Both the position numbers and the translations under genes were made by a program. From Candidatus Hydrogenedentota bacterium (GTDB lineage: Bacteria > Hydrogenedentota > Hydrogenedentia > Hydrogenedentales > JAEUWI01), in assembly GCA_016791475.1 (NCBI GenBank), contig JAEUWI010000039.1:1-64000 (forward strand): a stretch of 64,000 nt of DNA. Direction: 5' to 3'. Below the pieces are notes generated by a model that searched no databases, was not told where the DNA came from, and worked only from the letters and a program-made list of their open reading frames with translations. This document shows, piece by piece, positions 8,289 through 17,138 of the stretch. Numbering within the stretch: position 1 is the stretch's first letter; every line of letters starts with the position of its first letter.

Positions 8289-10058
8289 TCATTCTCCTGC
8301 GGAGAACACCCGCAGCGTGTGAATCGCGTCAAGTTTGGTTCGCGCCGGTGACTGCAGGTCCGGCTCGATCCCTCCCACGTCCCGCGCGTCAAGGAACGCG
8401 CGAAGTGCGGATTCCATTTCGCCCAGTAGCTCGGGATCGTCCAGATTCCGGGTGGGAAGATACTTCACTGCGGCGATACGCACCCGTTCATCCGGGTGCG
8501 CCATACAACGGTTCAGGAGCCGGAAGGCCTTCTCGAATCCGACAGGGCGCTCGCCCGTGAGTCGTCGTGTTTCCGGCAGCATCACGGTAATGGATCGATG
8601 GAGTGCTTCCACGTGAAGGGGTGTAACGTGTTCCTGCGTCTGGTCCATGGTCTCCTCGATAATCGCCTGTGCCGTGGCGCCCCAGTCCGCCCAGTAGGTC
8701 TTGGCGGACTGTGACGGAAAAGCGGGGCGAATCATGCCTTGGACGATGACGTCGTCCTGCATGGCGAGGCCATGCTCAAGCAGGGCGCGTGCTTTTCCCT
8801 GCTGTTCCTCAGTCTTGCGATAGCGATTAAGGGCCAGCATGCGAAAGGCTCTGGGATAGGGCGCGTGGGCCTCCGCGCGGTTGAATACCTGGGCTTCCAG
8901 TTGCGGCCAGGACAGGCTGGAGATCTCCTGCGCCAATCGGGGGAATTCCGGGGCGACAACCCAGTTACCATCAAACATCTCAGACGGCATGGACCAGGGT
9001 TGGACGTCGGGGTGCGGCAGTAAGCTTCCCTCCCGCTCCATCAGGGGAACCGGAGTCTCGGCAAAGCGCACATCGTAGATTGCGGCATCCTCGGGCAATC
9101 CCATGCCGCGGAAGGTGAAATGCTCCTGCGGGATTTGGTCGGTAATATCGGTCTGGGCGAACAGCACGGTCATTTTCTCATACATTGGCTGGTCCAATCC
9201 GCCCCCGGCCGCCTTTTCCGACGCAGTCAGATTTTCCAGCAGCCAGATGCCGGGCTGGGATTCCGATTCCCGGTAGCTTGCCAGCCATTCAATCACTTCG
9301 TAGCTCCGAATACGAGACTTGAAGAACGATTGGTGTACGCTGACCGCCTTGATCAGGCTATAGTTCAGCGCCGGGGCGATGTGGAAGCCACTGAGGTATT
9401 CCGACTTGTCCTGATAGCCTCCGGTGACGGGAAAGTTACGGTAGAAGGCGAGGTAGATACAGGGGATACCGTGAATCAGGCTGCGCTTGATTTCCGGCTC
9501 ATAGCCAACCTCCCGGAGGCGTGGAAGGAGCCGCTCCGGAGCGACTTTCGACTTTCCATAGAAGTAGTCGATATCGAAGGTGTTGGGGAGCTGGATAAAG
9601 TTACCGAAGCGTGTCGGCAGCTTGACGAAGCCCGTCTGGATATCCGACTCATATATGCGCTCGATCGAGTCGTCGAAGGATACCCGCTTCGAAAGGATTG
9701 TCCAGCCACTCGAGGCTTTCCGTTTGACGTCGTAGGTGTAGTCGAAGCGATGGCGTGGGCCGCTCTGCGCCCACTGGACCGTTTCAATCCGATCGGAAGG
9801 CCAGACGGCTCCCGTGTCGTCCGGCTCCAGATGCTTGTACCTCTCCGACTCGCCCCAGGGTTCACCCCGCTGGCTCCGGACCATACAAGCACCTTTGGAA
9901 TGCTCAAGCAACGCGTCGCGCCTGGTCGCCGCCTGCTGGACCAGGGTTATGACTTCGTCGAAGGTGGGCAGCGGCTCCCCCACTTCCTCCGCAGTACCGG
10001 CATTCAACCCTGCGAGAGAGAATAAGCCGAGTATCAGACACTTCCGAAATTGCCCCAT
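8289..10058 (-). CDS. Secreted protein of unknown function with HEAT-like C-terminus
   Basis: 589 aa. The ATG follows GGGAGG. Residues 1-24 form a signal peptide ending in NAGTAEE. I do not recognise a named family. Residues about 30-370 are rich in beta-strand patterns around an LPNTFDIDYFYGKSKV segment, reminiscent of the LolA-like sheets of secreted planctomycete-type proteins, but this is weak. Residues about 480-589 read as short helical repeats (NRCMAHPDERVRIAAVKYL), consistent with HEAT/armadillo-type repeats. It is monocistronic and transcribed away from the PQQ-propeller gene. Probably periplasmic; no function is assigned. Confidence 0.75.
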   Translation of the reverse strand: MGQFRKCLILGLFSLAGLNAGTAEEVGEPLPTFDEVITLVQQAATRRDALLEHSKGACMVRSQRGEPWGESERYKHLEPDDTGAVWPSDRIETVQWAQSGPRHRFDYTYDVKRKASSGWTILSKRVSFDDSIERIYESDIQTGFVKLPTRFGNFIQLPNTFDIDYFYGKSKVAPERLLPRLREVGYEPEIKRSLIHGIPCIYLAFYRNFPVTGGYQDKSEYLSGFHIAPALNYSLIKAVSVHQSFFKSRIRSYEVIEWLASYRESESQPGIWLLENLTASEKAAGGGLDQPMYEKMTVLFAQTDITDQIPQEHFTFRGMGLPEDAAIYDVRFAETPVPLMEREGSLLPHPDVQPWSMPSEMFDGNWVVAPEFPRLAQEISSLSWPQLEAQVFNRAEAHAPYPRAFRMLALNRYRKTEEQQGKARALLEHGLAMQDDVIVQGMIRPAFPSQSAKTYWADWGATAQAIIEETMDQTQEHVTPLHVEALHRSITVMLPETRRLTGERPVGFEKAFRLLNRCMAHPDERVRIAAVKYLPTRNLDDPELLGEMESALRAFLDARDVGGIEPDLQSPARTKLDAIHTLRVFSAGE

Positions 10059-15436: not shown

Positions 15437-16318
15437 TCACCTCGCCTGCCTCGTAGGATCACGATGGGCGGCGATCATGTGCTCCAGCGCGGCCCAACCC
15501 TGGCGCTGTTGCGGGGTGAGGGTCGCCTCTCCCCCATGCGCCATTCGATGATCGACCGCACGGAGCCAGCGGCGGGTCTTGCGCGGCAAGGTAATGCGCT
15601 CGTTCACCACGAGTCCGGTCACGTTCTGCTGCTGATGTCGCCGACGGATGCGAAGCTTCCGCTTCTGGTGGAGTTTGTAGCCGCCACTATCCAGGACGAT
15701 GTCCTTTGTACAGCAGATGATGTGCTCGATGCTGTTGTGATTATCTTTCGCGAAGGAAAAGGTGAGATCGTCGGCGTAGCGCGTGTAGACCGCGCCGTGC
15801 TTTCGGGCCAGTCCGGCGAGGCGTGCGTCCATCTGGAAGTTTACGGCGTTGGCCAGCACGGGGCTGGTCGGCGCGCCCTGGGGCAGCGCGCCCTCGTGGG
15901 TACACAGGCGTGTGAGTAACGCGGCCGCAGCCTTGTTCCATCCGAGGTGACGAAAGTACTTCTCCACGCGCTTGGCCGTGGTGGAGCCGAAGAAGTCCTT
16001 GATGTCCATCCGCACGACGACCGCCTGGCCCGTGTGGCATGCGGCGTTGCTCGCGATGGAATAGCCGGGGCGGAAGCCGGTAACGGCGGCGTGGACGGGC
16101 ATACGCTTCAGTACGCGACGGTAAATCTGGCGCTGGATGTTTTTTAGCGCGGGGTCCGGTGCGTGGATGGTGCGGGTGCCTCCGCTTCGCTTGGGCAGTT
16201 CAAAGGCGTGGTAGCGAATGGGCGCCGTCTCCAGTTCGGACAAGGGCAGTCCGACCCGCGCCGCGAGTTCCTCCGGCGTTCGCCCTCCCCCACCCGTCAG
16301 CCATGAAAAGAGGGACAT
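15437..16318 (-). CDS. Retron reverse transcriptase
   Basis: 293 aa; the ATG follows GGGAGG. The domain order is that of a retron RT. RT1 is RSGGTRTIHAP (44-54). Region X carries the retron-specific NAxxH as NAACH (91-95). RT3 has VVRMDIKDFFGST with Asp105. RT4 is LPQGAPTSPVLAN (145-157). RT5 is the catalytic YADD (181-184). Region Y is VTG in NVTGLVVNE (233-235). NAxxH and VTG separate retron RTs from group II intron and DGR enzymes. All catalytic residues are present. A thumb-like basic tail follows, with no fused effector domain. A candidate msr-msd RNA lies 57 nt upstream on the same strand. The RT would copy that RNA into branched msDNA. Known retrons act as anti-phage toxin-antitoxin systems; here no known effector gene is adjacent. 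Confidence 0.95.
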   Translation of the reverse strand: MSLFSWLTGGGGRTPEELAARVGLPLSELETAPIRYHAFELPKRSGGTRTIHAPDPALKNIQRQIYRRVLKRMPVHAAVTGFRPGYSIASNAACHTGQAVVVRMDIKDFFGSTTAKRVEKYFRHLGWNKAAAALLTRLCTHEGALPQGAPTSPVLANAVNFQMDARLAGLARKHGAVYTRYADDLTFSFAKDNHNSIEHIICCTKDIVLDSGGYKLHQKRKLRIRRRHQQQNVTGLVVNERITLPRKTRRWLRAVDHRMAHGGEATLTPQQRQGWAALEHMIAAHRDPTRQAR

Positions 16319-16350
16319 CCCGAATTCCTCCCGAGTGCTTTAATGAACAG

Positions 16351-16374
16351 TGGCGCCGGATTGCTCCGGCGCCA
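16351..16374 (-). other. 10-bp GNRA-capped hairpin between msd and RT gene
   Basis: On the minus strand TGGCGCCGGA and TCCGGCGCCA pair perfectly around a GCAA tetraloop. It begins one base after the a2 end of the candidate msr-msd RNA and lies ahead of the RT ribosome-binding site. No U-run follows, so it is not a typical terminator. It may block nucleases, set the RNA 3' boundary or attenuate RT expression. Confidence 0.7.
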
Positions 16375-16375
16375 A

Positions 16376-16485
16376 ACCCGCCCTGCTACTCGTGCGACGA
16401 GTGCACGAACTTTCACCGAAGGCCTGGTAGCCCGGTTGACGAAACATCAACCCACGTCCTGCATTGGGACGCCGCCAAGGCGGGT
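16376..16485 (-). ncRNA. Candidate retron msr-msd non-coding RNA (110 nt)
   Basis: Read 5' to 3' on the minus strand. a1 (16485-16476, ACCCGCCTTG) pairs with a2 (16385-16376, CAGGGCGGGT) over 10 bp with one G-U. a1 runs into TTGGCG, matching TTAGCG of Ec86, so the branching guanosine is likely at 16475. msr hairpin 1 is CGTCC/GGACG (16471-16455). msr hairpin 2 is GGTTGATG-TTT-CGTCAACC (16452-16434), whose UUU loop and GTTTC core resemble the RT-recognition stem of Ec86. The putative msd (about 16431-16385) has an outer GCTAC/GTAGC stem and an inner TCGTGC/GCACGA hairpin. The promoter's predicted start is the first base of a1. The folding was done by eye, so internal msd boundaries are uncertain. 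Confidence 0.78.
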
Positions 16486-16491
16486 AAGAAA

Positions 16492-16520
16492 AGTATACGG
16501 CGGGATGGGTGTCCCGTCAA
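16492..16520 (-). promoter_or_regulatory. Predicted sigma70 promoter of the retron operon
   Basis: On the minus strand TTGACG (16520-16515), a 17-nt spacer and TATACT (16497-16492). Six bases separate the -10 from A16485, so initiation is predicted exactly at the 5' end of a1. Confidence 0.78.
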
Positions 16521-16598: not shown

Positions 16599-17138
16599 TC
16601 ACGAGTCGCCGTCCTTCACGGGGCCACGGTCTTCGTCCCACTGGCGAAATCCGGTCAACCGCTTATACGGGCGCATGATCTCTCCCGTGATGGCGATATC
16701 TCCCGACGTTTCCTTCAAATGCTCCGGCAGGATAATCTCCATGAATCGCTTGCCGCGACGAAAGTAATGGTCATTACAACTGCACCGGTAAACGTAGCAT
16801 CCCCAGCCAACTCGTCCGTAAATGGTTCGGACATCCCAAGTGTAATCGCGATAGGTGCGACACTTTCCCTGTCGGCAAAGGGGGAATGGATAGAACAAAC
16901 GTAAGCGCCCAAGCTGGATGGCCCATATAAAGAGGGCCACGAACAGAACACCCAGCGCTGGTAGCAACACAAGCCCTATTGGCGGTTCACTGGCCCACCT
17001 CCAGGATAGCCCGCCCAGCGCGGTACCGCACCCCACGCAAAGTACGACTGCCAGTAACCGGGGCCCTGTTCTTGCCAAGAGAACGAGGTCAAACAAGAAT
17101 CGGAGGTAGCTGGTTCGTCCAATCAAAAGGTCGGTCAT
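16599..17138 (-). CDS. Two-helix Cys-rich membrane protein of unknown function
   Basis: 179 aa. Two strong hydrophobic segments lie near residues 27-46 (LLAVVLCVGCGTALGGLSW) and 54-77 (IGLVLLPALGVLFVALFIWA). They are followed by a soluble domain of about 100 residues with paired cysteines (PLCRQGKC, then GCYVYRCSC) and an aromatic/basic FRRGKRFMEI segment, which could bind a metal. I do not recognise a named family; it may be a lineage-common hypothetical. It lies upstream of the retron promoter and on the same strand, 57 nt after the response-regulator gene. Two-TM proteins are effectors in some retrons (for example Ec48), so it is worth testing, but it sits on the opposite side from the usual effector position and there is no direct link. 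Confidence 0.75.
   Translation of the reverse strand: MTDLLIGRTSYLRFLFDLVLLARTGPRLLAVVLCVGCGTALGGLSWRWASEPPIGLVLLPALGVLFVALFIWAIQLGRLRLFYPFPLCRQGKCRTYRDYTWDVRTIYGRVGWGCYVYRCSCNDHYFRRGKRFMEIILPEHLKETSGDIAITGEIMRPYKRLTGFRQWDEDRGPVKDGDS

Follow-up and report, generated by a model that had tools for sequence, protein, structure and literature searches.

The presented analysis indicates that positions 15437–16520 of the window (the whole stretch of 64,000 nucleotides that was analysed) hold a genuine retron of an untyped clade, in which a promoter, an msr-msd RNA, a terminator-like hairpin and a reverse transcriptase (RT) follow one another and no effector gene is linked. In the reading favoured here, to which a probability of roughly 0.5 is given, the RT is held at the membrane by its N-terminus and the unit serves in phage sensing. 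Such a two-part retron is probably membrane-associated, and its msDNA is predicted to be about 50 nt long. Retrons are understood as systems of three parts, namely an RT, an RNA and an effector. The two-part organisation of an entire clade, a distinct RNA family and the N-terminal membrane elements are the new features of the retron described here. As the clade spans two phyla and carries membrane helices on many of its RTs, the idea of an RT that is sensor and effector at once becomes testable, and compact units of this kind may serve for DNA production in cells.

Reverse transcriptase and type assignment

The RT gene (15437–16318, minus strand) encodes a protein of 293 aa without a fused C-terminal domain and is preceded by the ribosome-binding site GGGAGGA, recognised by its sequence (16326–16332, minus strand). 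The motifs named in the preliminary description, NAACH, YADD and VTG, were all located in this open reading frame, at residues 91–95, 181–184 and 233–235, respectively. VTG and YADD are present in all seven RTs of the window's phylum, and the region X motif in six of them (SHAQRH is found in G019). The protein matches the Pfam family RVT_1, and the PADLOC profiles RT_XIII (287 bits), RT_X (254 bits) and RT_other (252 bits). The nearest sequences with a solved structure are retron RTs, with Ec86 at the top, and a Foldseek search with the AlphaFold (AF2) model of the RT (mean pLDDT 94) returned the retron Eco7 and Ec86 RTs as best matches, ahead of group II intron RTs. The concern raised earlier that the RT might fall outside the retrons was addressed by phylogeny, which places it among retron RTs and apart from those of group II introns, in agreement with the structural model. 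Identity to the G001 homologue was far higher at second than at third codon positions (0.835 vs 0.495), which indicates purifying selection; these codon-position identities were used in place of dN/dS, since dS is probably saturated. The same genome holds a second RT (G000:C62:34171-34671), 35% identical, which groups with the group II intron-like outgroup. A 785-aa open frame in another genome of the set (L010, G062:C339) encodes a retron-like RT of a different kind with a large N-terminal part.

A search of genome contigs with the single RT gave relatives at 32–37% identity only. A profile of the seven RTs led to a relative in a second phylum, of which 343 genomes were then sampled; 44 of them gave matches, and the best 26 of the 44 scored 267–448 bits. 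These 26 RTs and the seven of the window's phylum constitute one clade of 33 members with a FastTree support of 0.996 (all support values given here are from FastTree), and the same topology was obtained in an IQ-TREE tree, which carries no support values. The first phylum appears to be Hydrogenedentota and the second Planctomycetota. In viral, phage and plasmid collections, no clade member was found among the matches listed, viral contigs reaching at most 44% identity, and the motif of the UUU stem described below had no exact match there.

The clade could be assigned to no PADLOC retron type. Judged by sequence, the element is a retron but lies outside types XIII, X and IV as these are defined, and the clade may already figure as an unnamed branch in a published retron classification. 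With type XIII retrons (the myxobacterial Mx162/Sa163/Mx65 group) the window RT shares the top PADLOC profile, the NAxxH and VTG motifs and an RNA located upstream. However, type XIII members reach 310–525 bits and have a longer N-terminal extension than the 293-aa window RT, which belongs to the separate clade supported at 0.996. Moreover, a SWIM gene lies upstream in the two type XIII loci checked and is missing from the window retron, and the RNA model gave no convincing match in myxobacterial type XIII loci (best E 0.28). A compact RT and a nearly full-length profile match (254 bits) are shared with type X, although the type X-like RT L097 (331 bits) branches elsewhere in a tree that includes one type X reference only. 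Membrane segments as the likely effector and a short msDNA (48 nt in type IV) are reminiscent of Retron-Eco6/Ec48. In type IV, the 2TM protein has a gene of its own, whereas 12 relatives of the window RT carry the transmembrane (TM) helices on the RT itself and no neighbour is matched by the PADLOC effector profiles. The logic of a single protein with the effector on the RT is shared with the fusion retrons I-C (Toprim), XI (protease) and XII (TIR); these, in contrast, carry soluble enzymes at the C-terminus, and the clade described here has short membrane elements at the N-terminus.

The msr-msd RNA

The non-coding RNA extends from a1 to a2 at 16376–16485 (minus strand) and scores 132.8 bits here with the covariance model R1. 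The predicted fold of 16485–16376(-), at −51.4 kcal/mol, reproduces the earlier drawing in its 10-bp a1/a2 pairing with one G-U and in the UUU stem. Double changes were found in 8 of the 10 pairs between a1 (ACCCGCCTTG, 16476–16485, minus strand) and a2 (CAGGGCGGGT, 16376–16385, minus strand), and covariation of a2 is seen in both alignments. The first unpaired G after a1, at 16475 (minus strand) in TGGC, is invariant in the seven aligned sequences. By likeness to the TAGC found at the a1 end of known retrons, which contains the branching G (PMC6868368), it is the candidate branching guanosine. The sequences that follow a1 in the aligned homologues (TGGC, TGGT or CGGT) are outside the listed variants of TAGC (PMC6868368). 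For the branching-G context of the preliminary description, it is to be corrected that TGGC differs in one base from TAGC, the form met most often.

The msr part comprises hairpin 1 (16454–16472, minus strand; 6 bp), with double changes in 4/6 pairs among seven sequences and 5/6 among 33, and hairpin 2, GGTTGATG-UUU-CGTCAACC (16434–16452, minus strand), in which 99.6% of the alignment cells are paired and four of eight pairs are double-changed among the 33 sequences. The structure of this UUU-loop stem, the putative recognition stem for region Y, is kept in all 33 copies. A small hairpin, GGGCT/GGCCT (16420–16433, minus strand), located at the msr 3' end or the start of the msd, is 80–82% paired and less well supported. 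The 48 nt from the UUU stem to a2 (16386–16433, minus strand) would contain the msd template and set the extent of the msDNA. Since this distance is 46–51 nt in the homologues of the window's phylum, an msDNA length of about 50 nt is expected. The msd hairpin abutting a2 (16388–16410, minus strand) can be drawn with 8 bp (16410–16403/16395–16388) or 6 bp (16402–16397/16393–16388). It occurs at the same place in all seven RNAs of the phylum, which retain the stem although their sequences differ (combined P 1.5e-5), and it can be much longer in the second phylum (L165, L209). The two-hairpin msd proposed earlier is to be corrected to one main hairpin, beside a2; the small hairpin at 16433–16420 is the less supported one. 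The RNA gave no retron match in an Rfam search.

The covariation that supports this structure is far above chance. In the seven-sequence alignment (A2), 20 of 39 pairs carry double changes, 95.2% of cells are paired and 0/500 shuffles were as good; sliding the partner strand by 1–3 columns reduced pairing to 33–45%. In the 33-sequence alignment, double changes affect 31 of the 39 pairs and 222 cells, again with 0/500 shuffles as good; this alignment was fitted to the structure and is biased towards it, whereas A2 is not. Covariation of the a1/a2 and UUU stems, which the preliminary description had named as a check, is thus found across 33 copies.

The distribution of the RNA follows that of the RT. 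The six homologous RTs of the window's phylum (56–73% identity) all have the same RNA upstream, a point that the preliminary description had proposed to check. Among the 68 genomes of this phylum, all from one order, the full-length RNA was detected by the covariance model in exactly the seven that carry the RT. At E ≤ 0.001, the model, which was built from RNAs of the first phylum only, identified 33 RNAs upstream of RTs; they are spread over 31 loci and come from both phyla. All 33 members of the RT clade have the RNA, 31 at this threshold and two weakly (L208, 27 bits; L206, 16 bits). A distinct covarying family without an Rfam counterpart is available, and its model finds further members. 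Two loci have tandem, differing msr-msd units before one RT (L202:8234-8385 and 8398-8545; L198:9499-9655 and 9254-9437, minus strand), and in L198 a promoter-like sequence upstream and a terminator-like hairpin accompany both units. In a genome of the same genus as the window's (G002, locus L061, G002:C50), positions 1496–1539 of the locus hold part of an msr, with 82% identity across 44 nt and without a2 or RT, apparently the decayed relic of a lost retron.

Promoter and terminator-like hairpin

The best promoter match in the region is the sigma-70-type TTGACG-17-TATACT (16492–16520, minus strand; 10/12). Its −10 element ends 6 nt before a1, so that transcription is expected to start at about the beginning of a1. 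All seven homologues of the phylum have such a promoter, with a 17-nt spacer and the −10 end 5–7 nt from a1; the shuffle P value is at most 0.012 in five of them, and 0.06 and 0.17 in the remaining two. Between a2 and the RT there is a conserved 10-bp hairpin with a T-enriched tail (16351–16374, minus strand), every pair of which is double-changed in the 33-sequence alignment. It was classed as terminator-like (tail T content 38% vs 20% background) and is probably a terminator or attenuator. With this element, the ncRNA would be released as a transcript of its own and the RT expressed by read-through. The hairpin had been missed in the preliminary description, in which the a1–a2 RNA was correctly delimited; the unit is larger by the promoter (16520–16492), msr hairpin 1 (16472–16454) and this outer hairpin (16374–16351).

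The RT N-terminus and its possible mode of action

In 12 of the 33 clade members (L165, L198–L201, L206, L208 and L211–L215), one or two strongly hydrophobic segments lie in frame downstream of the RNA and ahead of the RT core. Eleven of these TM calls have KD19 ≥ 1.8 and L208 was called by eye; the starts were also picked by eye from in-frame codons. N-terminal TM helices were found in none of 109 other retron RTs. All twelve fall into one subclade (support 0.989), within which six members without TM helices are nested. The extension is evidently coding, because most of the differences between L214 and L215 in it affect the first or third position of a codon (identity 0.76/0.94/0.67 by position), and an AlphaFold model of a TM extension has helices at 7–19 and 24–49 ahead of the RT core. 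In most of the remaining members, the protein starts with a short M-x-L-[FW]-x-x-[LF] stretch that often contains basic residues, and as a group the non-TM N-termini are amphipathic (mean moment 0.52 vs 0.36 in shuffled sequences, 0/2000).

In the window RT, the position equivalent to the relatives' membrane helices is occupied by residues 1–12, the short aromatic segment MSLFSWLTGGGG (16283–16318, minus strand). The analogy suggests a membrane role for this segment; its own case is weak, since the low moment (0.29) and the low model confidence at residues 1–10 (mean 54) make membrane binding of this particular RT uncertain. More generally, the lack of a neighbouring toxin gene and the frequent membrane anchoring of the RT itself suggest that the retron may need no separate effector, the membrane segment being a candidate built-in one.

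The following course of events may be proposed. A short ncRNA starting at a1 would be made in excess; the RT would bind its UUU stem, prime from the 2'-OH of G16475 and copy the region upstream of a2, and the resulting msDNA would be branched and roughly 50 nt long. The N-terminus of the RT would anchor the complex at the membrane. Phage sensing is the most likely function: the membrane segment of the RT would be freed when the msDNA is damaged or bound by a phage protein, and the RT might then act as the separate membrane effectors do in other retrons. Only tentatively, a two-part type may be envisaged in which the RT acts on the membrane as the effector, by way of a transmembrane hairpin or an amphipathic helix at its N-terminus, and is restrained by its own msDNA, and in which one RT can serve two tandem ncRNA units.

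Genomic neighbourhood and alternative explanations

The window retron is flanked by genes for a 179-aa orphan protein, a response regulator, a hybrid histidine kinase and a convergent CN-hydrolase. Neither the 179-aa gene nor the CN-hydrolase has an orthologous position in relatives. The gene types listed in the preliminary description, such as ATPase-HNH and deoxyribosyltransferase, are known retron effectors and are not among the actual neighbours; its statement that no known retron effector is linked holds. When the ORFs within 6 kb of 34 RTs (the 33 clade members and L219, which is outside the clade) were clustered, no partner gene was kept across the clade, which supports the claim of a missing effector. 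PADLOC gave no family match among the neighbours save a generic response-regulator match. None of the phylum's seven genomes with the retron contains SWIM_XIII, the partner that accompanies the type XIII RTs of myxobacteria. Pieces of SWIM_XIII occur on short contigs of a same-genus genome (L063 and L064; G003:C696 and C442), where no retron RT was found. Two other candidates were rejected: YjbQ, which is downstream in G024, G048 and G052 and is the only near-neighbour common to genera of the first phylum, belongs to a widespread non-defence family, and a neighbour cluster from six genomes, to which the histidine kinase and the response regulator of the window belong, seems to consist of generic genes for signalling. 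A tripartite defence system with a linked or fused effector is thus not seen here, the N-terminal membrane segment being a candidate only. The absence of an effector is in itself not new, because some retrons lack proximal effectors (PMC8867640) and Retron-Bth1 makes RT-DNA without an obvious effector (PMC12548924). Retron-Bth1, however, is a single case on an extrachromosomal element, and a group II intron splits its RT gene, whereas a whole clade with intact RTs is described here.

Next in rank, and rather doubtful, is a complete retron with an effector gene at another place in the genome; the effector would act in trans, and RT and RNA would be only the sensor-antitoxin half. The well-studied retrons do use an effector, and the RT remains under purifying selection with no linked partner in the 34 loci. 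Known retron effectors, however, are linked or fused; it would be unusual for an unlinked one to be retained in two phyla and in many different insertion contexts, and an effector in cis is at hand in the membrane helices.

It is less likely still that the unit is a non-defence retron or a persisting selfish cassette that makes msDNA and has no effector of any sort. Such a cassette would suit a unit that stands alone among unrelated flanks, has a promoter and a terminator-like hairpin of its own, is patchily present (7/68 genomes) and was apparently lost where the RT-less msr relic remains. The membrane helices and the marked conservation of both the RT and the RNA nevertheless suggest a selected function, and the retron is present in a single copy in its own genome with no sign of active mobility.

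Effectors acquired locally in each lineage are improbable. In the window's species, this role would fall to the 179-aa protein (16599–17138, minus strand), which has several Cys residues and, by eye, two hydrophobic, apparently TM segments, and is unique to its own genome within the phylum. Its gene lies upstream in the same direction, and ends about 114 nt before a1; at the same place in G010 (L023), a 1644-aa protein with a TIR-like start and a long YD-repeat-like array is encoded by a gene that ends 214 nt before the RT. Against this, the 179-aa protein has no homologue in the other 67 genomes of the phylum, six of them retron-bearing, and no PADLOC, Pfam or NCBIfam match; a separate 2TM effector gene as in type IV is not seen in it. 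The retron's own promoter stands in between, and in other members the place is taken by a dehalogenase-like gene or by divergent genes of the GntR and DnaJ-like kinds.

Chance-folded hairpins upstream of a non-retron RT, conceivable in a G+C-rich region that folds readily, are refuted by the covariation (0/500 shuffles in two alignments, 33–47% pairing in the slid controls over both) and by the nesting of the RT among retron RTs. Prepilin genes resembling the DUF1559 kind were observed near clade loci.
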